The notes beneath the pieces were generated by a model. That model did no database searches. It saw only the letters and a program-made list of their open reading frames with translations, and had not been told where the DNA came from. This document shows, one piece after another, positions 273-34,036 of a stretch of DNA of 35,310 nucleotides. The translations under genes were made by a program, and so were the position numbers. The DNA comes from Deltaproteobacteria bacterium. GTDB lineage: Bacteria > Desulfobacterota > GWC2-55-46 > DRQE01. Each line of letters begins with the position of its first letter. Positions within the stretch are counted from its first letter, which is position 1. The stretch covers positions 1 to 35,310 of the forward strand of contig JACRCI010000064.1 of the NCBI GenBank assembly GCA_016219105.1. The letters run 5' to 3'.

Positions 273-327
273 CGGTTCGATTCTTTTTTGCCATAACGGA
301 TTGCGGAAAAAGGACGGGATCTGCCGC

Positions 328-348
328 CAACCAGCCGTCTTCGCCGGT
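328..348 (-). repeat. Palindromic 21-bp repeat unit at the aldolase stop codon
   Basis: On the minus strand this is ACCGGC-GAA-GACGGC followed by the linker TGGTTG, one 6-3-6 unit of the dispersed family described in the findings. The aldolase TGA (348-350) falls at its upstream edge, so the element lies at the end of that reading frame. Confidence 0.65.
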
Positions 349-2743: not shown

Positions 2744-2800
2744 CCGTCGGGGGACGGCTGGTAGGCCAGCGAGGCTGGCTGAAGGGCCGTCGAGGACGGC
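2744..2800 (+). repeat. Three palindromic units between gyrA and gpsA
   Basis: Three small hairpins occur in series: CCGTC-GGGG-GACGG, then GCCAGC-GAG-GCTGGC (2765-2779), then GCCGTC-GAG-GACGGC (2786-2800). They are separated by the 6-nt linkers TGGTAG and TGAAGG, giving a 21-bp period. The block fills the gyrA-gpsA gap. This is the clearest non-coding example of the repeat architecture. The hairpins have compensating arm changes (GCCGTC/GACGGC against GCCAGC/GCTGGC), which suggests the structure matters or was the unit of copying. Confidence 0.75.
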
Positions 2801-2808
2801 CGGGCCCG

Positions 2809-8820: not shown

Positions 8821-8841
8821 GCCGTCATGGACGGCTATCTG
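8821..8841 (+). repeat. Palindromic unit at the 3' end of the nuclease gene
   Basis: GCCGTC-ATG-GACGGC followed by linker TATCTG. The nuclease gene, read on the other strand, takes its last residues and its TGA stop (8825-8827) from this unit. Confidence 0.75.
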
Positions 8842-9421
8842 GCCGAACCTGCCGTGTCATCCCCTTTCGTTCTTTCAGACCTTTCGCCCCCCAAATGCCC
8901 ATTTTCCCGGCCATTGCCACGGACTCAAGCGCCCTATACTCCCTCACCTTTTTAAGCCCGCACGGCGGGATCGTCAAGACCCTGGCGAGGCCCTCTTTCA
9001 GGAGCACGCCGCTTACGTCAACCCCGTCAACGTAGACCCAGGCAAGGAGCCTTCCGTATTTGTCCCTCGGCCTTTCATCGCATGCGACAACATTGACCTC
9101 TCTGTCCCTGACAAGCGCGATGTTCCGCCTTTTCGCTTCTTTATAGAAAGGCTCGCCTACCTCCGGCGCGTCAATCCCGGCATACCTTACCTTTTCGCCG
9201 TCCGGCAGAACTATGGTGTCGCCGTCTATGACCCACCTGACGATTACGGCCTCCGGGTGCCGGCCGGGACTCCTCGCGGCCGCGGTCAGGGAAAAACCCG
9301 CGCCCGTGAGGACAGGAAAAATAAGGATGAGGAACAGAAAAAGAAGCGCGCCTGAAAACCTTTTCACGCCGGGCGCCGGCCCGCCAGCCGGCCATGCCGG
9401 TGGCAAAGCCGGGACTACCAT
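8825..9421 (-). CDS. Secreted or membrane-anchored thermonuclease-family (SNase) protein
   Basis: A staphylococcal-nuclease fold enzyme of 198 residues, expected to cleave DNA or RNA with calcium outside the cytoplasm. A hydrophobic export segment covers residues 25-48. The nuclease core starts near 58, with IDGDTIVLPDGEKVRYAGID then APE. Catalytic equivalents of Arg35, Glu43 and Arg87 are Arg79, Glu87 and Arg124 (DKYGRLLAW). The ATG at 9421 overlaps the stop of the HAMP gene, suggesting coupling. The first 18 residues, however, are Pro/Ala/Gly-rich and derive from a palindromic repeat; GTG 9367 would give a conventional signal peptide instead. The C-terminal residues and stop codon also come from a repeat unit. 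Confidence 0.8.
   Translation of the reverse strand: MVVPALPPAWPAGGPAPGVKRFSGALLFLFLILIFPVLTGAGFSLTAAARSPGRHPEAVIVRWVIDGDTIVLPDGEKVRYAGIDAPEVGEPFYKEAKRRNIALVRDREVNVVACDERPRDKYGRLLAWVYVDGVDVSGVLLKEGLARVLTIPPCGLKKVREYRALESVAMAGKMGIWGAKGLKERKGMTRQVRPDSRP
9375..9401 (-). repeat. Palindromic unit inside the nuclease N-terminus
   Basis: On the minus strand: ACCGGC-ATG-GCCGGC, linker TGGCGG, then the start of a second arm GCCGGC. In the nuclease frame it reads PAWPAGG, the same codon phase as the units in Der and TsaE. Confidence 0.6.
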
Positions 9422-10028: not shown

Positions 10029-10049
10029 GCCGTCAAGGACGGCTAATTG
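10029..10049 (+). repeat. Palindromic unit between two divergent promoters
   Basis: GCCGTC-AAG-GACGGC followed by TAATTG. It lies between the HAMP promoter and the AbrB-like promoter. Confidence 0.75.
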
Positions 10050-10062
10050 GCTAATTTCCGGC

Positions 10063-22065: not shown

Positions 22066-22503
22066 CTACCCCACCTCTATCCTTCTTTTCGTCTCGCCCT
22101 CGTAAAAAAACCTTATGGTTATCGCGTCTTCCGGCAAAAGGCCACCAGCCGTCCCTGACGGCCCCCCGGCCTTTTCAGCCCATTCTATTACGCTTACGCC
22201 GTCCCCGTAAATATATTCTTCCAATCCGAGGCCGTTGATCTCGGAGGCGCCCTTCAGCCTGTAAAGGTCTATGTGATAGAGCGGCAGCCTGCCGTCGCCG
22301 TATACGCGCACTATTGTGAAGCTCGGGCTTTTTACGTGATAACCCTTAACCCCGAGCCCCGCGGCAATGCCCCTTGTAAACTGCGTCTTGCCGGCCCCGA
22401 GTTCGCCCGTAAGCGCGACGACGCTTCCCTTTCCAAGCCCACTGGCAAACCTCTTCCCGAGTTCCTCGGTCTCCTCAGGGGAGTTTGTGGTAAAGACCTC
22501 CAC
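22066..22503 (-). CDS. tsaE: tRNA threonylcarbamoyladenosine biosynthesis ATPase TsaE
   Basis: TsaE is the P-loop ATPase that works with TsaB and TsaD to make t6A37 in ANN-reading tRNAs. The 145 residues have Walker A GELGAGKT (33-40), KSPSFTIVRVY, YHIDLYRL and the conserved GVSVIEWAEKA. Between EWAEK and the LPED motif lies an extra segment GGPSGTAGG (residues 113-121), which is encoded by a palindromic repeat unit. The start is GTG 22503. It follows nnr by four bases. Confidence 0.92.
   Translation of the reverse strand: MEVFTTNSPEETEELGKRFASGLGKGSVVALTGELGAGKTQFTRGIAAGLGVKGYHVKSPSFTIVRVYGDGRLPLYHIDLYRLKGASEINGLGLEEYIYGDGVSVIEWAEKAGGPSGTAGGLLPEDAITIRFFYEGETKRRIEVG
22142..22162 (-). repeat. 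Palindromic unit inside tsaE
   Basis: On the minus strand GCCGTC-AGG-GACGGC, linker TGGTGG. It lies in the tsaE frame in the same phase as the unit in der, encoding PSGTAGG. Confidence 0.75.
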
Positions 22504-22507
22504 GCCC

Positions 22508-24094
22508 TCACCCGCGTATGAAAGAATTTAAAATGGCCGGGACTTCCGCGAGGAGGTCCGTTGCCATCATCCCGGCCTCCCCTCTTTTTTTAGCGGCCTC
22601 GTCCCCGGACAACCCGTGTATATAGACCGCGGCAACCGCGGCCTCCGTCATATCCAGACCTTGCGATAGAAGGCCGCCCGTAATGCCCGAGAGCACGTCC
22701 CCGGTGCCGGCCGTGGCCATGCCGGGGTTGCCCGTTGGGTTGATGAAGACCTCTCCGCCAAAGGCAACAACGGTCGAGGCGCCCTTGAGCACAACGACCG
22801 AGCCAGTCTCCTTTGAGAGCCTGCCGGAAAAACCGACCCTGTCTCCCTGAACGTCTTTTACGGCCGCTCCGACGAGCCTCGCCATCTCTCCGGGGTGCGG
22901 GGTAAGGATTATCCCGGTCTTTCCGGACGCTTTTTTTAAAAACAACAGGCTGAGCGCCAGCCGTCCCTGACTGCCCCCCAGCGCGTTAAGACCGTCGGCG
23001 TCAATGACAATGGGTATGCGTTTCTCGGCGCATCTTCCAATAACCGCTTCCGTATATCCGGAAAGCCGCCCGGAAAGCCCCATGCCAGGACCGATGACGA
23101 CCGCTGTTTTCCCTTCTAATATCTTCAGCGTATCGTCAATGGAACTCTCGCCGAGGGTCGAGTCTTCGGTTTCCGGCAACGGGTGCGTCATGACCTCGGT
23201 CGTCTTGGCCTCCATAATGGGATTCAGACTCTCCGGCAACGCGATTGTGACAAGGCCCGCGCCGGCCCTCATCGCGCCGAGGGCCGCCATATACGGCGCC
23301 CCTGTCTTTCCCGGAGACCCGCCTATGACGAGGACGTGGCCGTATATGCCTTTATGCGTGTCCCTCTTTCTCGGCGAAAGGGCTCCTTTCACCTCCTGGG
23401 CGTCAATGAGGTTGTGCCTTATATCCATGCCTTCAAATATCTGCCGCGCCGCGCCTATGTCAACGACCTCGACCCTGCCGGCATAGTCCCTCCCCGGATA
23501 AAGCCACAGCCCGAGCTTTGCGAGCGCCATCGTGGCGGTCACCGTCGCCTTGACCGCGGCCCCGAGCGCGCGGCCGGTCGCGGCGTCAAGGCCGGACGGG
23601 ACGTCCACCGATACGACGGGCTTGTTGAGTTTATTTATAAGCTCTATAACGCTTGCGTATACGCCCGTAAGCGGCGTTGAAACGCCCGTGCCGAGTATCG
23701 CGTCAACGATGAGGGAGGAATGCCTCAACGTCAGGACGTGCTTTTTTAGCTCCCCGATGGTCCGCACGGGATATATCCCGCCGCCCATTTTTCCCCATAT
23801 CCGGGCGTTTATCCCAGCATCCCCTTTTATCCCGGACGGGGCGCTGAGGGAGAAGACCTCCACGTCAAACCCCCGGTTTTTCAAATGCCTCGCGCATACA
23901 AACCCGTCACCGCCGTTATTGCCCTTCCCGGCGATGACCGAAACCCTCCTGCCGCCGAGCCTCTTGAGTTCCCCGGTAACGATATCAGCCGCGCCCCTGC
24001 CCGCGTTCTCCATCAACACGATGCCGGGAATACCGTATCTGCGCACGGCGAGGGAGTCGAACTCTCTCATCTCCTCGGGCGTAACGAGTTTCAT
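22508..24094 (-). CDS. nnr: Bifunctional NAD(P)H-hydrate repair enzyme
   Basis: The 528-residue fusion repairs damaged NAD(P)H hydrates. The N-terminal YjeF_N domain (about 1-215) is the epimerase, with MENAGRG, GKGNNGGDGFVCARHL and VSVDVPSGLDA. The C-terminal domain (about 230-515) is the ADP- or ATP-dependent dehydratase, with VIGGSPGKTGAPYMAA, ILTPHPGEMARL and NPGMATAGTGDVLSGI. Around residues 373-381 (LGGSQGRLALS) a palindromic repeat unit has been incorporated. It overlaps acpS by four bases (ATGA) and precedes tsaE by four, a common order in several phyla. Confidence 0.94.
   Translation of the reverse strand: MKLVTPEEMREFDSLAVRRYGIPGIVLMENAGRGAADIVTGELKRLGGRRVSVIAGKGNNGGDGFVCARHLKNRGFDVEVFSLSAPSGIKGDAGINARIWGKMGGGIYPVRTIGELKKHVLTLRHSSLIVDAILGTGVSTPLTGVYASVIELINKLNKPVVSVDVPSGLDAATGRALGAAVKATVTATMALAKLGLWLYPGRDYAGRVEVVDIGAARQIFEGMDIRHNLIDAQEVKGALSPRKRDTHKGIYGHVLVIGGSPGKTGAPYMAALGAMRAGAGLVTIALPESLNPIMEAKTTEVMTHPLPETEDSTLGESSIDDTLKILEGKTAVVIGPGMGLSGRLSGYTEAVIGRCAEKRIPIVIDADGLNALGGSQGRLALSLLFLKKASGKTGIILTPHPGEMARLVGAAVKDVQGDRVGFSGRLSKETGSVVVLKGASTVVAFGGEVFINPTGNPGMATAGTGDVLSGITGGLLSQGLDMTEAAVAAVYIHGLSGDEAAKKRGEAGMMATDLLAEVPAILNSFIRG
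22954..22974 (-). repeat. Palindromic unit inside nnr
   Basis: On the minus strand GCAGTC-AGG-GACGGC, linker TGGCGC, preceded by a G-run like that before the tsaE copy. It is read in a different codon phase (GSQGRLA) from the tsaE and der copies. Confidence 0.65.
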
Positions 24095-26625: not shown

Positions 26626-27065
26626 GGCTGCCTCAGGCGTTCGATGCGTATGTCAACGGAAGAAGGCCTTACCCTTACGACCTTTATCCCGCCGGGCGTT
26701 TTTATGTCCCCCGCGCTTATCCTGTACGTGTTCATCCCCTCTTTCGCGCCGCTTACGTCCAGCGCCGCCTCTATCTCCGAAGGCGAAAGGTTCGTCATTA
26801 AACTCCTGGGGCCCGTCACCCTCACCTCTATGTCCATGTCCGCGTTGTCGGCTATCATCATGTCGTCCGGGATACCCCTGACGACAAGGGGCACGAAAAG
26901 CCCGACCTCGGACGATTTCTCGCCGATGACAAGAAACCACAGGGCCGCGGAAAAAACAAGGGCAAGGATTTTAAGCCTCAGGTTCCTAAAAACAAGGCCC
27001 CTTAAAACCCCTTCCGCTTCGTGGCCGGCTATCTGGCCGGCGCGGCCTGAACCTGAGGACTTCAT
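26622..27065 (-). CDS. cdaR: YbbR-domain protein, CdaA regulator-like
   Basis: A short CdaR of 147 residues from ATG 27065, which overlaps the cdaA stop (ATGA). It has a TM helix (about residues 25-45, [20 protein letters not shown]) and a single extracytoplasmic YbbR domain, whereas Bacillus CdaR has several. CdaR modulates the diadenylate cyclase CdaA. Residues 4-13 ([10 protein letters not shown]) before the TM come from a palindromic repeat and look dispensable. The order cdaA-cdaR-glmM matches the Firmicutes c-di-AMP operon. Confidence 0.85.
27021..27050 (+). repeat. Degenerate palindromic unit in the cdaR N-terminus
   Basis: GTG-GCCGGC, linker TATCTG, then GCCGGC-GCG-GCCTGA. The linker and flank match the unit at 8821. 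The left arm is degraded. Confidence 0.5.
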
Positions 27066-27847
27066 GCGCGCGGCCTCCACGGGAAAAAAACCCTGCCCTC
27101 GCCCCCTCCGGTCGAAATAATCCCTTTAAGCCTCGGCACCAGTTCCGTCAGGGCTATGCCGAGTTCGAGTTTTTCGTCAAAGACCAGCGACACCTCGCCG
27201 GTTTTCTCCGAGATCACTATGACGGCCGCGTCCGTTTCCTCGGAAAGCCCCACGGCCGCCATGTGTCTCGTGCCGATTTTCCCGGCGAGTTTTTTCTCGG
27301 TAAGCGGCAGTATGCAGCCTGCCCTTGCGATCCTGCCGCCCCTGACGAAAACCGCCCCGTCATGAAGCGGCGACGAAGGGTCGAATATGGTGAGTATAAG
27401 CTCCCTTGACACCTCCGCGTCTATATTGACCCCGCTTTCGAGGAAATCCCTCAGGTCAATCCCCCTCTCTATGACTATAAGCCCGCCCATCCTGTTTGAC
27501 GACATGGCCGCCACGGCGCCCGATATCTCGTCTAAAAAGCCGGTCGCGCCGGCCTCGTGGTTTGTAAAGGGACGACCCATCTGCACGAGCGCCCTCCTTA
27601 TGTCCTGCTGGAACACCACGATAATGACTATTACGATGCTCCCCAGAAAATTATTGAGTATCCAGTGGAGCGTCAGGAGTTCCATCCTCTCGGCCGCGAA
27701 GTAGACCAGCACCACGACCGCAAGCCCCCAGAGCATCCTCTCTCCCCTTGTCCCTTTCACAAGGAGCATGACCCAGTAAAGGACCACCGCCACGAGGGCT
27801 ATGTCAATCGCCGTAATAATCGGCAAGGCGGTAAACGTCTCAAACAC
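27062..27847 (-). CDS. cdaA: Diadenylate cyclase CdaA
   Basis: Membrane-bound enzyme making c-di-AMP from two ATP. It has 261 residues with three N-terminal TM helices (about 10-80), followed by a DisA_N domain with FQQDIRRALVQMG, the DGA motif (163-165 in SSPLHDGAVFVRGG) and CILPLT. The usual RHR motif reads GTRHMAAVGLSEETDA: the last Arg is Met196. The start is GTG 27847, which overlaps the folP stop by eight bases. The neighbouring cdaR and glmM support the role. Confidence 0.92.
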   Translation of the reverse strand: MFETFTALPIITAIDIALVAVVLYWVMLLVKGTRGERMLWGLAVVVLVYFAAERMELLTLHWILNNFLGSIVIVIIVVFQQDIRRALVQMGRPFTNHEAGATGFLDEISGAVAAMSSNRMGGLIVIERGIDLRDFLESGVNIDAEVSRELILTIFDPSSPLHDGAVFVRGGRIARAGCILPLTEKKLAGKIGTRHMAAVGLSEETDAAVIVISEKTGEVSLVFDEKLELGIALTELVPRLKGIISTGGGEGRVFFPWRPRA

Positions 27848-29123
27848 GCCCTTTCCCCCGTTCCTCTTCCGGCGAGGCCGGCTGGTTGACCGGCGAGGCC
27901 GGCTGGACGACGGCCGTCGTGGACGGCAGCGCCCCTGCGGTTATGGCGGAAATCATGTCCGCGGCTGAGCGCGCCTCTTTTACGTCATGGGCCCTTAAAA
28001 TGCGCGCGCCGTTAAACACCCCCAGAGACTCCGCGGCGATTGTAGCGCCGAGCCTCTGCTCCGGGGCAGCTCCGAGCGCGGCGCCGATAAACGATTTCCG
28101 GGACGCGCCGAGAACTATCGGGCGGCCGAGGGTTTTAAACTCCCTCACCCTCTTTATTATCTTCAGGTTATCCCCGGCCGACTTGGCGAAACCTATCCCC
28201 GGGTCTATCGCGGTTTTATCCATCTCTATGCCGGTTTTGCGCGCGTAGGCGAGCCTTCCGGCCAGATAATCGAATATCTCACCCATGAGGTCTCCGTAGG
28301 AGGCGTGCCCCCGCATGTCAGCGGGGGTTCCCCTCATGTGCATCAGGATTACCCCCGATCCGTATTTACTGACAACCTCCGCCATGGAGGCGTCCAGAGT
28401 CATCGCGCTTATGTCGTTGATTATCTCCGCGCCGTTTTTAAGCGCCTCCTCGGCAATAACTGCCTTCGTGGTATCAACCGAGACGGCTATACCCCTTTTC
28501 GCCAGTTCCTCGACCACGGGGATGACCCTCCTTAACTCCTCGTCGCTCCCGACCCCTTTTGAGCCGGGCCTCGTCGACTCTCCGCCTACGTCTATGACGT
28601 CAGCCCCCTCCCCGGCCATCTTGAGCGCCCTCTCGACGGCCCTTTCCCTGTCAAAGAACCGCCCGCCGTCATAGAATGAATCCGGAGTAACGTTGAGTAT
28701 GCCCATGACGAGGACCCTGCCTGAGAGATCCCATTGCCGGGTGCGGCCCTTGAAGGTAAGGCGCCCGGACGTGAGGTTTCCGATTGCCTCGTTTATCGCC
28801 CCCGCGATCCCGGCAAGGCCGTAAGGCTGGCGGCAAAGTTTTTCCGCAAGCCGCGCGAACTGTTTGAGCGTGGCCGACAGGATGCAGCCGGTATGCGCGA
28901 CCTCGCAGGCGGCAACCCCTTTTGAGACCGCGGCCTCGCCGCCTATCGAAAGCATGTCCTGTTTGATTATGTTGGCCTGGGCCGGGGTGAGCCTGTCGAG
29001 CTTGAGGTTGTAGTGGAACTGCTTCGGGGCCATGAGCGCTATACCGGCGGGATCCACCCCGATGCGTTCCATCTCGGAGGCGGCCTCTTCAATGGAGCCT
29101 ATCTCAATAAAGCGGACCTTCAA
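27840..29123 (-). CDS. folP: Dihydropteroate synthase with N-terminal extension and repeat-derived tail
   Basis: FolP condenses p-aminobenzoate with dihydropterin pyrophosphate, the sulfonamide target. Residues 133-395 form the TIM barrel with MGILNVTPDSFYDGG, VIDVGGESTRPGS, NDISAM, DPGIGFAKS and LGASRKSFIG. The first 130 residues form an extra domain (KQFHYNLKLDRLTPAQANII is typical), known from deltaproteobacterial and related FolPs, of unknown function. The last 30 residues (QPASPVN, QPASPEE) come from tandem palindromic units. It lies between ftsH (100 bp away) and cdaA (8-bp overlap). Confidence 0.93.
   Translation of the reverse strand: MKVRFIEIGSIEEAASEMERIGVDPAGIALMAPKQFHYNLKLDRLTPAQANIIKQDMLSIGGEAAVSKGVAACEVAHTGCILSATLKQFARLAEKLCRQPYGLAGIAGAINEAIGNLTSGRLTFKGRTRQWDLSGRVLVMGILNVTPDSFYDGGRFFDRERAVERALKMAGEGADVIDVGGESTRPGSKGVGSDEELRRVIPVVEELAKRGIAVSVDTTKAVIAEEALKNGAEIINDISAMTLDASMAEVVSKYGSGVILMHMRGTPADMRGHASYGDLMGEIFDYLAGRLAYARKTGIEMDKTAIDPGIGFAKSAGDNLKIIKRVREFKTLGRPIVLGASRKSFIGAALGAAPEQRLGATIAAESLGVFNGARILRAHDVKEARSAADMISAITAGALPSTTAVVQPASPVNQPASPEEERGKGRV
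27868..27927 (+). repeat. Three palindromic units in the folP tail
   Basis: TCCGGC-GAG-GCCGGC, linker TGGTTG, ACCGGC-GAG-GCCGGC, a 9-nt linker TGGACGACG, then GCCGTC-GTG-GACGGC. CCGGCGAGGCCGGCTGG is repeated exactly with a 21-bp period. All spacings are multiples of three, so the folP frame passes through. The stop lies 28 bp further on. Confidence 0.8.
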
Positions 29124-29222
29124 GCTCGATCAGTTCTCCGTTCAGGTTTGTTCGGAATGAAAGAGCGTTCGTAACCCGGTCAGGGGAAAAGAGGGAAAGG
29201 TCCTTCGCGCGCGTTAGCCAGC

Positions 29223-31124
29223 CTATGCCTTGGCCGCCTCGTCCTGCGGGGCCCCGGGGAGACTTCCGGGCCAGGGCGATGCGCCCTTCGCCGTCCCGGT
29301 CTTATCCTCCCTGGCCGTGGTGACCCCGGGCGGCGCGCTGTCCCCGAAGATTACCCTGTCTATCTCCTCTCCGCCGAGGACCTCTTTTTCGAGTATGGCC
29401 CTGGCGAGCCTGTGAAGGGTGTCAATCCTCTCGCCGAGGAGTTCCCTGGCCCTGAGCTGGCTGTCTCTCACTATCTTCTTTATCTCGTTGTCTATCTCGA
29501 CGGCCGTGGCCTCGCTGAAGTCCCTGGCCTGCCCCCTCTCCTTGCCGAGGAATATGTGCTCCTCTTTCTTCCCGAAGGTAAGGGGGCCTATCTTTTCGCT
29601 CATCCCCCACTCGCAGACCATCTTGCGCGCTATCTCGGTCGCCTTCTCTATGTCGTTGCCAGCGCCGGTGGTGAGGTGGTTGAGAACAAGCTCCTCGGCG
29701 ACCCTGCCGCCCATGAGCACCGCTATGTTGTTTTTGAGGTAGTCACTGCTGTAGGTGTGACGCTCGTCTATGGGGAGCTGCTGCGTCTGCCCCAGGGCCA
29801 TGCCCCTGGGTATTATGGACACCTTGTGTATCGGGTCGGTGCCGGGTATGAGCCTGGCCACAAGCGTGTGGCCGGCCTCGTGATAGGCGGTGCTTCTCTT
29901 CTCCTCCTCGCTTATTATCATGCTCTTCCGTTCCCTGCCCATCAGGAGCTTGTCCTTTGCCTCGTCGAACTCGGCCTTGCCGAGCTTCTCCTTGCCCCTC
30001 CTGACGGTCAGGAGCGCGGCCTCGTTCACGAGGTTCGACAGGTCCGCCCCGGAAAAGCCGGGCGTGCCCCTGGCTATGGTCTCTATGTCAACGTCCGCGT
30101 CGAGCGGCGTCTTTGCCGTATGCACCCTGAGTATCTCATGCCTTCCCTTTATGTCCGGCTTCGGCACGACCACCGTGCGGTCGAACCTGCCGGGCCTTAA
30201 AAGGGCCGGGTCGAGCACGTCCGGCCGGTTCGTGGCGGCTATGATTATAACGCCCTCGTTGCTCTCAAACCCGTCCATCTCGACGAGCAGCTGGTTGAGG
30301 GTCTGCTCCCGCTCGTCGTGGCCTCCGCCGAGACCCGCGCCCCTGTGGCGGCCGACCGCGTCTATCTCGTCTATGAATATTATACAGGGCGCGTTTTTCT
30401 TGCCCTGCATGAAAAGGTCCCTTACGCGCGAGGCCCCCACGCCCACGAACATCTCGACGAAATCACTGCCGGATATGCTGAAAAAAGGCACCCCGGCCTC
30501 TCCGGCTATGGCCTTGGCGAGCAGCGTTTTACCCGTGCCCGGCGCCCCGACGAGCAAAACCCCCTTGGGTATCCGCCCGCCGAGCTTCGTGAATTTTTTC
30601 GGGGCCTTGAGGAAATCTATTATCTCGCTTACCTCTTCCTTGGCCTCATCTATCCCGGCCACGTCCCTGAAGGTGACCGAATGCTGACTCTCGGTGAGGA
30701 GCTTGGCCTTGGATTTGCCGAAGCTCATGGCCTTGCCCCCTCCGCCCTGCATCTGACGCATGAAAAATATCCAGAGCGCTATCAAAAGGAGCATCGGGAA
30801 CCAGGAGACGAATATGGTGCCCCATCCCGGGGTGTCCACGTCCGGCTCGGCCGATATCCTTACCCCTTTGGCCTTGAGCTTGGCGACAAGCTCGGGGTCG
30901 TCAGGCGCGAACGTGCGGAACTCCTTGCCGCCCCTGTACATCCCGCTGATCTTATGCCCCTGTATGGTGACCTCGGAAACGTCCCCCTTCTCAAGGGACA
31001 CGAGGAAATCGCTGAAGATTACCTTGTTGGGCAACGGCTCCTTTGAGTTCAGGAAGACGAACATGAACACAAAGGCGGATATTATGATAATCCACAGCGC
31101 TATGTTCTTATATAGCTGGTTCAT
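29223..31124 (-). CDS. ftsH: ATP-dependent zinc metalloprotease FtsH
   Basis: Membrane AAA+ protease that degrades misfolded membrane proteins and regulatory proteins. The 633 residues have TM helices at about 8-26 and 105-123 flanking a periplasmic domain. Next come Walker A GAPGTGKT (194-201), Walker [12 protein letters not shown], the [23 protein letters not shown], and the zinc motif HEAGH (416-420). The TTG at 31127 is adjacent, but ATG 31124 after AAGGTAG is the likelier start. The C-terminal tail is Pro/Gly rich. The 544-bp region upstream is repeat DNA, and no tilS or hpt precedes it. Confidence 0.97.
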
Positions 31125-31334
31125 CAAACTCTACCTTTTTTGGTTTGGATACCGTTTCGGGATACCGGCAAAGCATAATTTTCTCATATAGTTAGGCATT
31201 TTACAACATAAATGTTGCGCCGCGCGCTTCGGGGTTAATTCCCTGCGGCTTGCCGCGCATGTCGTTTCCTCTCCCCTTGGGGGGGAGGACTATGGTGGGG
31301 GGTACATGCCCGCGGGCTACGGCGCCCCCTCACT

Positions 31335-31605
31335 CTGTCATGCTGAATTCATTTCAGCATCTCATATACTGAAACGAGTTCAGCACAAGTTTAGGGAAGG
31401 TCTGATTAATTCTCTTTTTGTCATTGCGAGCCGCGTTTTTGCGGCGAAGCAATCTCGTAACTTACTGATTTGCCTATAGGACGAGATTGCTTCGCTACGA
31501 TAGCAATGACGGGACTGGGAATTAATCAGACCTTCCTTAGACCCTGAAACAAGTTCAGAGCCTGCCCCGAACTTGTTTCGGGGGTGACACAACAGGACTT
31601 TTTCA
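31335..31605. repeat. Composite repeat block between ftsH and der
   Basis: The gene-free stretch 31128-31671 holds this mosaic. It has CTGTCATGCTGAATTC...TTTCAGCATC (31335-31363), a GAAACGAGTTCAGC palindrome, the nested element at 31395-31536, CAGAGCCTGCCCCG...CGGGG.TGACA (31556-31589) and AGGACTTTTTCA (31594-31605). The first and last two modules recur in the lysC-lpdA gap in the same order, so these are two copies of one mosaic, with the TCATTGCGAG element inserted in this one. No coding region or tRNA is seen. Confidence 0.65.
31395..31536. mobile_element. MITE-like palindromic element, 142 bp
   Basis: It is bounded by perfect 18-bp terminal inverted repeats starting GGAAGGTCTGATTAATTC (31395-31412) and inversely at 31519-31536. 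Internally it is also largely self-complementary (TCATTGC at one side, GCAATGA at the other; GAAGCAATCTCGT inverse to ACGAGATTGCTTC). It carries no ORF. A non-autonomous element is the simplest explanation; no target-site duplication could be established. Confidence 0.65.
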
Positions 31606-31671
31606 AAAGCCCCTCCCCGCCAATCTTTGCTTTTTTTATTTTTTTGCTTTGCCTGTCAGGCGGGCATTCGT

Positions 31672-33066
31672 TCAGCGCCTACTTCTGAAGACAACCCTCA
31701 CGGGCGCGTCCGTAAGGCCGAGGGATTCCCTGAAGCGGTTTACGAGGTATCTCCGGTAAGATTCCGTCACGCCTTTGGGGAGGTTCGCGAAGACGGCGAA
31801 TTTGACCGGGGCCGTTCCTGTCTGCGTCATGTAGTAGAGCTTCACCTCTTTGCCCCTGTAAGCGGACGGCCGTGTCTGCGCCACGAACCCCTCGAGCAGA
31901 CGGTTGAGCCTTGAGGTCGTGAACCTGCGCGTTGACTGCTCGAACACCTCGTCTATCCTGCCGAAGAGGTCCCTGATGCCCCTGCCGGTAAGCGCGGAGG
32001 TGAAGACAACGGGCGCGTATTGCAAAAACGGCATCGTCAAACGGATCCTTTCCGTATAAAGCCGGGTGCTGTCAACATCCTTTACCACGGTATCCCATTT
32101 GTTTACGACGATTACGCAGCCTTTGCCCCTGCGCTCTATGAACCCGGCTATCTTCTCGTCCTGCATCTTGAGCCCTTCCATGCCGTCTATCACGAGGAGC
32201 GCCACGTCGCTTCTTTCGATGGTCTTTATCGCCGCGAAGACGCAGTATGCCTCGAGGGTCCTCGTTATCCTGCCCTTTTTCCTTATGCCGGCGGTGTCTA
32301 TGAAAAGGTAGCCCTTCCCGTCTTTCTCGAAAGGCGTGTCAATGGAATCGCGCGTGGTGCCCGGCACATCGCTCACTATCGCCCTCTGCTTCCCGATGAG
32401 TTTATTCAGGAGGGACGATTTCCCGGCGTTGGGCCTGCCGACTATGGCGACCCTTACCCTCTCCGTCAAGGACGGCTGGTTGGCCGTCTGCCCGGCCTCC
32501 GTAGCCTCCGTCCTCGACGGCCCGACAGCCGACACTGCCGGCCAACCAGCCGTCCTTGACGGTTCCTCACGCGGGAGATTGGCGATGACGGCGTCGAGGA
32601 GCTCGTCAACGCCAAGCCCGCTCTCCGCGCTCACCGCGAGTACGTCGTCAATGCCGAGCGAATAAAAATCACTGACTGCCGGGATGAGCCTTTTGGTGTC
32701 AACCTTGTTAGCCGCGTAGATAACCTTCTTCCCGGTCCTGCGGAGCATAGCCACGAGCTCGCGGTCGCCGGGCATGACCCCTTGCCTGTTGTCCATGAGG
32801 AATATGATGACGTCCGCCTCTTCGACGGCGAGGGTCGCCTGCTCCTTTACCTTCCTGAGTATCGCCTCTTTCGCGGCCGGCTCAAACCCGCCGGTGTCAA
32901 CGAGGGTGAAACTCCTCCCCCCCTCCGAGCAGTCGGCGTAGTTCAAATCCCGCGTGACCCCGGGCTCGTCTTTGGTTATGGCCCTGCGCCTTCCTCCGAG
33001 GATCCTGTTGAAGAGCGCGGATTTGCCGACGTTGGGCCGGCCGACTATGGCTACAAGCGGTTTCAT
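31672..33066 (-). CDS. der: Ribosome-biogenesis GTPase Der (EngA)
   Basis: Der has two tandem GTPase domains and a KH-like domain and is needed for 50S assembly. GD1 has GRPNVGKSALFN (9-20), DTGG and NKVD; GD2 has GRPNAGKSSLLN (210-221), DTAGI and NKWD. The KH-like domain follows and ends VFRSRR. The linker between GD1 and GD2 (residues about 168-202) is unusual: it is built almost wholly from a 102-bp palindromic repeat block. Its start is separated from era by an era terminator, so a local promoter is expected; TACAAT at about 33085 is a possible -10. Confidence 0.96.
   Translation of the reverse strand: MKPLVAIVGRPNVGKSALFNRILGGRRRAITKDEPGVTRDLNYADCSEGGRSFTLVDTGGFEPAAKEAILRKVKEQATLAVEEADVIIFLMDNRQGVMPGDRELVAMLRRTGKKVIYAANKVDTKRLIPAVSDFYSLGIDDVLAVSAESGLGVDELLDAVIANLPREEPSRTAGWPAVSAVGPSRTEATEAGQTANQPSLTERVRVAIVGRPNAGKSSLLNKLIGKQRAIVSDVPGTTRDSIDTPFEKDGKGYLFIDTAGIRKKGRITRTLEAYCVFAAIKTIERSDVALLVIDGMEGLKMQDEKIAGFIERRGKGCVIVVNKWDTVVKDVDSTRLYTERIRLTMPFLQYAPVVFTSALTGRGIRDLFGRIDEVFEQSTRRFTTSRLNRLLEGFVAQTRPSAYRGKEVKLYYMTQTGTAPVKFAVFANLPKGVTESYRRYLVNRFRESLGLTDAPVRVVFRSRR
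32462..32563. repeat. Palindromic repeat block forming the Der interdomain linker
   Basis: The block is flanked by perfect 24-bp inverted repeats (32463-32486 and 32539-32562), each containing CCGTC-AAG-GACGG and TGGTTGGCC. On the minus strand the 21-bp period gives ACCGTC-AAG-GACGGC, GCCGGC-AGT-GTCGGC and GCCGTC-GAG-GACGGA, with linkers TGGTTG and TGTCGG; a final unit is in reverse orientation. Der reads through it as heptapeptides PSRTAGW, PAVSAVG, PSRTEAT, EAGQTAN and QPSLTE. Confidence 0.85.
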
Positions 33067-33120
33067 GGTTTCCCTGTTTCTATTGTATTATGGCCGGAAG
33101 ACGACTTACCTTGAAACTCC

Positions 33121-33144
33121 AAAAAACCGGCAAGTCGCCGGTTT
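33121..33144 (-). terminator. Rho-independent terminator of era
   Basis: On the minus strand AAACCGGC-GACTT-GCCGGTTT, directly after the era TAA, runs into six T residues. It separates era from der. Confidence 0.85.
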
Positions 33145-34036
33145 ACTCGTACCCGAACTCCTTCATCGCCCTCGAATCCCCGGTCCACCCCTTTTTAACC
33201 TTTACGAAAAGCTCCAGATAGACCCTCACGCCGAGGAGCTTCTCGATGTCCGCTCTTGCCGAGGCGCCTATGTCCTTGAGCATGGCGCCCCTTTTCCCTA
33301 TGATAATGGCCTTCTGCGAGTCCCTTTCAACGTTGATCACGGCGCTTATGTAGACGAGGTTTTTCTCCTCCCTCTCCTTGAACTCCTCCACGACGACTGC
33401 CGTTGAGTACGGTATTTCCTCCTTTGTAAGGATAAAGACCTTTTCCCTTATAATCTCGGACGCGATGAACCTTTCGGGCTGGTCCGTTATGATGTCCTCA
33501 GGGAAATACCTCGGGCCCTCGGGCAGGATCCTTGAAATCACCTCGACGAGCAACCCGGCGCCGTCCCCCTTGAGGGCCGAGACGGGCACTATCTCCTTGA
33601 AAGGAAAAAGGCCGGAGTATCTTTCCATGAGGGGGAGGAGCGACCTTTTGTCAACGAGGTCTATCTTGTTTATCGCGAGTATCACCGGGCATTTAAGGCC
33701 CCTGAGATTTTCCATTATAAAACGCTCGTCGTCCCCTATATCCCTCGTCGCCTCGACGAGGTAGACGATGCCGTCCGTATCTCTGATGGCCCTCAGGGCC
33801 GCGCCCACCATGAACTCGTTCAGAAGCCCCCTCGCCCTGTGGAGCCCCGGCGTGTCAATGAAAACAACCTGCCCGTCCCCGTCCTTAAGGTTTTTAACGC
33901 CCCGGATGACGTTGCGCGTCGTCTGGGGTTTTTTCGAGACGATGGAGATCTTCTCTCCGATTATGGAGTTCAGGAGCGTTGATTTGCCCGCGTTGGGGCG
34001 GCCTATTATGGCTATGAAACCTGATTTGAAAGGCAT
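33143..34036 (-). CDS. era: GTPase Era
   Basis: Era binds 16S rRNA 3' end and assists 30S maturation. The 297 residues include the GTPase domain with GRPNAGKSTLLNSI (10-23), TTRN, DTPG and NKID, then the KH domain region IIGKRGAMLKDIGASARADI, ending with GFGYE. Length is normal. The ATG has only a weak Shine-Dalgarno visible. It is followed at once by a terminator. Confidence 0.96.
   Translation of the reverse strand: MPFKSGFIAIIGRPNAGKSTLLNSIIGEKISIVSKKPQTTRNVIRGVKNLKDGDGQVVFIDTPGLHRARGLLNEFMVGAALRAIRDTDGIVYLVEATRDIGDDERFIMENLRGLKCPVILAINKIDLVDKRSLLPLMERYSGLFPFKEIVPVSALKGDGAGLLVEVISRILPEGPRYFPEDIITDQPERFIASEIIREKVFILTKEEIPYSTAVVVEEFKEREEKNLVYISAVINVERDSQKAIIIGKRGAMLKDIGASARADIEKLLGVRVYLELFVKVKKGWTGDSRAMKEFGYE

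Follow-up and report, generated by a model that had tools for sequence, protein, structure and literature searches.

The window analysed here is a stretch of 35,310 nucleotides from the genome of an uncultured deltaproteobacterium, which is available as a draft in 137 contigs and is 95% complete. Its minus strand carries der (engA), which encodes a ribosome-biogenesis GTPase; the 464-amino-acid open reading frame (ORF) scores 532 bits against the Der/EngA equivalog TIGR03594 of NCBIfam (cutoff, 306.7) and aligns over its full length with Der in the PDB, with two G domains and a C-terminal domain. An earlier note on this DNA had pointed to exact 24-bp inverted ends in the segment encoding the linker between the G domains, and these were confirmed: the perfect arms lie at 32463-32486 and 32539-32562, are separated by 52 nt, and were the sole inverted repeat found by an inverted-repeat search of 32200-32800. 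The block that they enclose encodes the peptide PSRTAGW PAVSAVG PSRTEAT EAGQTAN QPSLTE between the two G domains and is made of four copies of a dispersed 21-nt unit, three on one strand and one on the other, as listed below (PWM, position weight matrix score).

31672-33066, minus strand: der (engA), ribosome-biogenesis GTPase, host of the insertion (464-amino-acid ORF; NCBIfam TIGR03594; PDB Der alignment)
32462-32563, minus strand: repeat block, about 34 amino acids of the GD1-GD2 linker (inverted arms, alignment of relatives, predicted disorder)
32463-32483, plus strand: unit 1 (CCGTCAAGGACGGCTGGTTGG), facing the other way from units 2 to 4, one arm of the inverted repeat (PWM 34.2)
32484-32499, minus strand: 16-nt junction between the opposed units (from the sequence), possibly an eroded unit
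32500-32520, minus strand: unit 2 (CCGTCGAGGACGGAGGCTACG), with a degenerate spacer (PWM 11.3)
32521-32541, minus strand: unit 3 (CCGGCAGTGTCGGCTGTCGGG), degenerate, sharing the 21-nt register of units 2 and 4 (PWM 10.6)
32542-32562, minus strand: unit 4 (CCGTCAAGGACGGCTGGTTGG), with the sequence of unit 1 but in reverse orientation, the other arm (PWM 34.2)

This layout accounts for what had been noticed in the linker. The inverted ends exist because the first and last units have the same sequence and point toward each other, and the three minus-strand units and one plus-strand unit support the earlier suggestion that units had been inserted in opposite orientations; the heptad pattern of the peptide is the 21-nt unit read in frame (PSRTAGW). 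The mRNA hairpin that had also been proposed is indeed predicted to be very stable (-78.3 kcal/mol, z = -9.45, with none of 200 shuffled sequences equally stable), as is expected as a by-product of two identical units placed face to face. A hairpin or ribosome-pausing role specific to Der found no such support and is disfavored because units are found within genes on either strand and are read in most of the possible frames. In the AlphaFold model, the insert (residues 169-199) has a pLDDT of <50 and no secondary structure, and both G domains outside it are mostly of high confidence. Since the insert lies in a flexible linker and is predicted to be disordered, it is probably tolerated rather than used.

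A 21-nt unit dispersed in tandem arrays

The consensus of the unit, CCGTC-RAG-GACGG-CTGGTTGG, comprises a 13-nt hairpin (5-bp stem and 3-nt loop) and an 8-nt spacer, 21 nt in all. The 102-base Der block, used as a query, gave about 90 matches in its own genome; the block is no peculiarity of Der, as the same units occur there hundreds of times. A strict one-unit pattern matched the genome 204 times (98 on the plus strand and 106 on the minus strand) and its reversed-pattern control not at all, and with up to two mismatches there were 571 matches genome-wide versus 61 in the control. Over the 239 kb of sampled stretches, a position weight matrix found 279 units versus about 11 in a third-order Markov control scored at the same threshold; densities from this sample are biased, because the stretches lie around matches and were selected for arrays. 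The window contains 12 units with a score of at least 13, which extrapolates to about 635 per genome, and pattern counts together with the window density place the genome total at about 500 to 650 units.

Arrays are mostly head to tail, with one to five units and an exact 21-nt period (120 cases of neighboring units spaced exactly 21 nt apart in the sampled stretches), and mixed orientation within a cluster, as in Der, is seen in 8 of 143. Because 21 nt is seven codons, the reading frame is preserved by any whole number of units, whichever strand they are on, and all six frames of the consensus unit are free of stop codons. Beside the main spacer type (CTGGNNGG), a second 8-nt type (AGTGCCGG/AGTGTTGG/AGTGCTGG) occurs at L039:3034, L044:4084, L045:3042, L048:3250, and L062:2982.

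Net insertion relative to orthologues

The distance between the two G1 motifs of Der is 201 amino acids here and 173 to 174 in 26 of 28 relatives, a net gain of 27 or 28 residues. The two exceptions, the nearest relative with 186 amino acids and one other with 195 (net differences of +15 and +6), carry linker extensions of their own that are unrelated and acidic. The earlier note had asked for exactly this alignment, with an identical old linker in close relatives as the sign of a selected protein segment; no such linker was found, and the relatives are without the segment.

Comparison with orthologues from members of the family and order gave net insertions in steps of seven amino acids elsewhere as well. 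The two units in trmFO add exactly 14 amino acids in six of six comparisons, and five single-unit sites each add exactly 7; one degenerate-unit site adds 6, and one two-unit site adds 13. Such insert-free orthologous sites give the net length of the element. In alignments with PDB structures, the inserts of MnmG, MnmE, Der, and TrmFO fall between conserved blocks. Some matrix hits show no net insertion (L055, window 27532, and window 28810) and are probably native sequence rather than members of the family; at L055, the matched GGACGGCTGG is native in a relative.

Placement in genes, at gene ends, and in intergenic DNA

By the positions from our own gene caller, which makes 89% of the sampled DNA coding, 90 of the 143 clusters lie wholly inside genes, 45 lie between genes, and 8 lie across gene ends. 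At the level of units, 171 of 279 (about 61%) are in genes, and intergenic DNA, about 11% of the sample, holds 39% of the units, an enrichment of about 3.5-fold. The other units of the window are as follows.

327-347, minus strand: unit, intergenic, beginning directly behind the stop codon of the gene upstream
2766-2807, plus strand: two units, intergenic, the first with the stem CCAGC/GCTGG
8822-8842, plus strand: unit at the 3' end of a gene
9380-9400, minus strand: unit, intergenic
10030-10050, plus strand: unit, intergenic
22141-22161, minus strand: unit within a 438-nt gene, +7 amino acids versus the orthologue in relative G006
22953-22973, minus strand: degenerate unit within a 1587-nt gene, net +6 amino acids versus G006
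27869-27910, plus strand: two units at the C terminus of folP (dihydropteroate synthase)
28810-28830, plus strand: doubtful unit within folP, net length change of 0 versus the orthologue, probably native sequence

Hosts identified with NCBIfam include Der, MnmG, MnmE, TrmFO, QueC, an RsmE family member, MtaB, and ParB, as well as DNA polymerase IV, ComEC, DprA, dihydropteroate synthase, and MltG; below the strict cutoff, the names are CCA/poly(A) transferase-like, FtsX-like, MetH-like, and CheA-like. The CCA/poly(A) transferase-like protein (L048:2472-4133) carries nine units at several places, and its nucleotidyltransferase part is still recognizable. Such a genome provides many natural experiments on the places where inserts are tolerated in essential proteins, and an odd linker in one protein may be a genome-wide repeat in disguise.

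Relative to the host gene, 107 units are on the same strand and 66 are on the opposite strand, and units are unevenly distributed over the six reading frames (49, 42, 32, 30, 16, and 4 of 173 units). The arginine-rich readings RRGRLVG and PTSRPRR account for the 16 and the 4, versus about 29 each if the frames were used evenly, a pattern that would fit random insertion followed by purging of harmful products.

Nine sampled arrays start right after the stop codon of an upstream gene on the same strand (L045:4466, L046:3008, L049:2505, L053:3003, L055:2956, L059:4572, L065:3019, L066:4670, and window:327), far more than at any other distance, and a stop triplet precedes 22 of 158 arrays. These arrays may point to a role, or to a preferred site, at gene ends.

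Covariation within the stem

At stem positions 4 and 10, 151 units carry T/A and 78 carry G/C; the mismatched combinations T/C and G/A occur in 23 and 13 units. The two positions covary within the unit (odds ratio [OR] of 39, P = 4e-32), with within-unit ORs of 31 in coding sequences and 59 in intergenic DNA, and stem positions 3 and 11 covary as well (P = 9e-12). Position 4 compared with position 10 of the neighboring unit gave an OR of 1.5 (P = 0.31), that is, no covariation between units. Either perfect hairpins are what spreads or some process keeps the arms complementary. Template switching is a documented process of the latter sort and is reported to create and repair hairpin stems (PMC8794818). 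The family offers a test of whether a transposase is needed for hairpins to spread and for their stems to stay paired.

Occurrence outside this genome

The strict pattern had no match in any of the other eight genomes in the taxonomic family, occurred once among 58 relatives, none of which had an array, and gave single stray matches in 5 of a further 394 genomes from across the phylum. The two-hairpin pattern had no match in IMG/VR and one stray match, in Dactylosporangium, among the GTDB species genomes, and the three-unit consensus matched nothing in phages or plasmids; these scans of public collections may leave out the present genome and genomes near it. Carriage by a phage, plasmid, or virus was ruled out on the lack of matches in those collections. 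Since the family is absent from relatives and public collections, it is, as far as can be seen, private to the species or genus.

Sampled DNA of three family members contained other repeats but not the 21-nt unit. Relative G007 has a dispersed long palindrome, TTGAGAGAACCTTTTTATAAAAAGGTTCTCTCAA, in several copies in 204 kb (L120, L122, L126, L129, and L137); it resembles an ordinary palindromic or MITE-like element. Relative G005 has dispersed REP-like elements (ACATGCATCGCGAGCGC...; CCTGCAGCAAGCTGCAGG) at L104, L107, L109, L110, L113, L114, and L115, and relative G006 has a CRISPR-like array at a contig end (L094:1-700), with 11 repeats that contain ACCAATGTCTGCGCACAACT.

How the unit might spread

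The search for mobility enzymes covered five profiles, and none was found in the 95% complete draft: Y1 (RAYT/IS200, PF01797), IS110 (PF01548), DDE_Tnp_1 (PF01609), reverse transcriptase (PF00078), and Cas1 (PF01867). The same Y1 profile gave hits in 5 of 14 control genomes. With no genes for them in the draft, these five were ruled out as drivers.

The 8 nt directly upstream of an array are more similar to the last spacer of that array than expected by chance (z = 4.2), and the match persisted, at offset 0 only, once arrays with a possible extra upstream unit had been removed (z = 3.8). The signal is statistically clear but weak: it averages about 0.3 nt per array, and good direct duplications are limited to about a dozen arrays. 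The first and last spacers of one array have no pair-specific similarity (z = 0.36), which rules out shared local spacer variants as a mimic of flank duplication. Insertion of a 13-nt hairpin with duplication of 8 nt of flank would account for the 21 nt exactly; we regard flank duplication upon insertion as a lead rather than a finding.

It is conceivable, if doubtful, that a 13-nt hairpin with its duplicated 8-nt flank constitutes an ultrashort mobile unit with a seven-codon footprint, spread by hairpin-templated replication or repair without a conventional transposase. If this were true, such a unit would equip proteins throughout the proteome of a single bacterium with in-frame, modular heptapeptides.

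Two sites were noted at which the hairpin overlaps sequence shared with a relative. At L063:175-2319, the new unit lies between two copies of GACGG, and the relative has a single copy at that place; in mnmG (L040:2750-4930), the stem is CCATC/GATGG, and its right arm coincides with a native GATGG of relative G013. To judge from these alignments, both sites look as if native sequence had seeded the hairpin.

Origin of the Der block and competing explanations

The Der block is quite probably explained by the insertion of four units of a dispersed tandem-hairpin repeat that is private to the species; the repeat itself would be a selfish or neutral palindromic element in the style of the Rickettsia palindromic elements (RPE) or REPs. 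That a dispersed family has inserted in frame we hold to be nearly certain; we have moderate confidence that this family is selfish or neutral and low confidence in any particular mechanism of spread. Units would insert in frame on either strand as whole seven-codon blocks, and insertions would survive where the peptide is harmless, namely, in loops, linkers, and termini of housekeeping proteins and in intergenic DNA; in Der, the 27 or 28 extra residues fall in the flexible linker between the G domains. Spread might proceed via some enzyme acting in trans or via a replication-based route, and at some sites about 8 bp of flank may be duplicated on insertion.

Two other explanations have some claim, although we think neither likely. 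The units could be functional DNA or RNA sites (for the nucleoid, repair, transcription termination, or mRNA stability) kept by selection, the covariation reflecting selection for the hairpin. Within-unit covariation that is equally strong inside and outside genes, the nine arrays directly after stop codons and the 22 of 158 arrays preceded by a stop triplet, the roughly 3.5-fold intergenic enrichment, and a length of 21 bp, which is two helical turns, all speak for such sites. However, most units are inside genes and on either strand of them (107 same and 66 opposite), the family is wholly missing from relatives, and no Rfam family matched in the region searched (27000-33500).

Equally improbable in our view is an origin in which replication template switching or ectopic gene conversion makes, extends, and perfects hairpins at short native landing sites resembling GACGG/CCGTC, with no transposase; the covariation of the stems would then have a mutational cause. 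It would agree with the lack of the tested transposase, reverse transcriptase, and Cas1 families in the draft, with compensation in rare stems too (A3-T11 in 11 of 18 units with A3), with the native arms preexisting at L063:175-2319 (GACGG) and in MnmG (GATGG in G013), and with the reported ability of template switching to create and repair stems (PMC8794818). Template switching is local, yet near-identical 21-mers occupy hundreds of unlinked sites, so that copying in trans would be needed, and the native-arm examples number only two.

Far less probable is a selected protein segment specific to Der, or a product of local slippage, with a regulatory mRNA hairpin. The very stable predicted fold and the essential nature of the host gene favor it, but the same units are found in dozens of unrelated genes and between genes, relatives lack the segment, the insert is predicted to be disordered, and copies that face opposite ways and belong to a genome-wide unit cannot be the work of local slippage; any explanation confined to Der was dropped once the block had matched about 90 places in the genome. 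An assembly or chance artifact of GC-rich sequence, which the draft state of the genome (137 contigs) might suggest, is hardly credible given reversed-pattern and Markov controls near zero and arrays across many contigs, on both strands, and inside otherwise intact genes with orthologues.

Comparison with known systems

The preferred reading, a selfish or neutral dispersed repeat, places the family next to several described systems. RPE were first reported as elements of about 150 bp in ten families, with 44 integrations in Rickettsia conorii (Ogata 2000, 2002; PMC10969869). As those accounts describe them, RPE are, like the present family, palindromic repeats dispersed in one lineage, placed in frame in unrelated housekeeping genes, and apparently tolerated, and in-frame palindromic insertion into unrelated protein genes is what we found here. 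The comparison is by described size and arrangement, and in these the two differ: the present unit has 21 nt, a 5-bp stem, hundreds of copies, head-to-tail arrays, and six frames.

GTAG REPs are likewise short palindromes in hundreds of copies, some of them intragenic, and Thauera GTAG-1 has 5-bp stems and is largely clustered, in clusters that can encode tens of residues (PMC3733652). The present units, however, have no terminal unpaired GTAG tag (GTAG is in the tail of 11 of 279 units), and no RAYT (PF01797) was found in the draft; GTAG REPs and REPINs are mainly extragenic and form head-head or tail-tail pairs, whereas here about 61% of units are in coding sequences and arrays are head to tail. 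CGTC REPs have a CGTC end tag, an 8- to 9-bp stem, a 4- to 5-nt loop, and negligible head-to-tail dimers (PMC3733652). They share with our family the palindrome, known intragenic copies, the lack of a known dedicated transposase, and the letters CGTC, but in our unit these letters are part of a 5-bp stem that closes a 3-nt loop, and head to tail is the rule.

PARCEL elements are also tandem protein-coding repeats with dyad symmetry in their DNA, but their unit is an amphipathic one of 25 residues in ORFs without assigned functions in many clades (PMC2996958), whereas here a 7-residue unit runs across the housekeeping genes of one species. CRISPR arrays resemble the family in palindromic repeats and regular spacing; here, however, the spacers are 8 nt long and mostly alike, arrays of one to five units lie inside genes, and there is no Cas1. 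As for MITEs, which would carry the terminal inverted repeats of a resident IS and a target-site duplication of constant length, no DDE_Tnp_1, IS110, or Y1 gene was found among the families tested in the draft, and what bears on a target-site duplication is the weak 8-nt match between flank and last spacer (z of 3.8, offset 0 only).

By analogy, the family behaves like RPE and intragenic REPs, especially the clustered, 5-bp-stem GTAG-1 of Thauera. It is not a REP, because the end tag, RAYT, a mainly extragenic location, and head-head pairs are all missing, and we file it as a variant of the small dispersed palindromic elements that are also intragenic. In-frame palindromic elements are already known from Rickettsia and from intragenic REPs; the present element is far shorter (21 nt), strictly periodic, and much denser.
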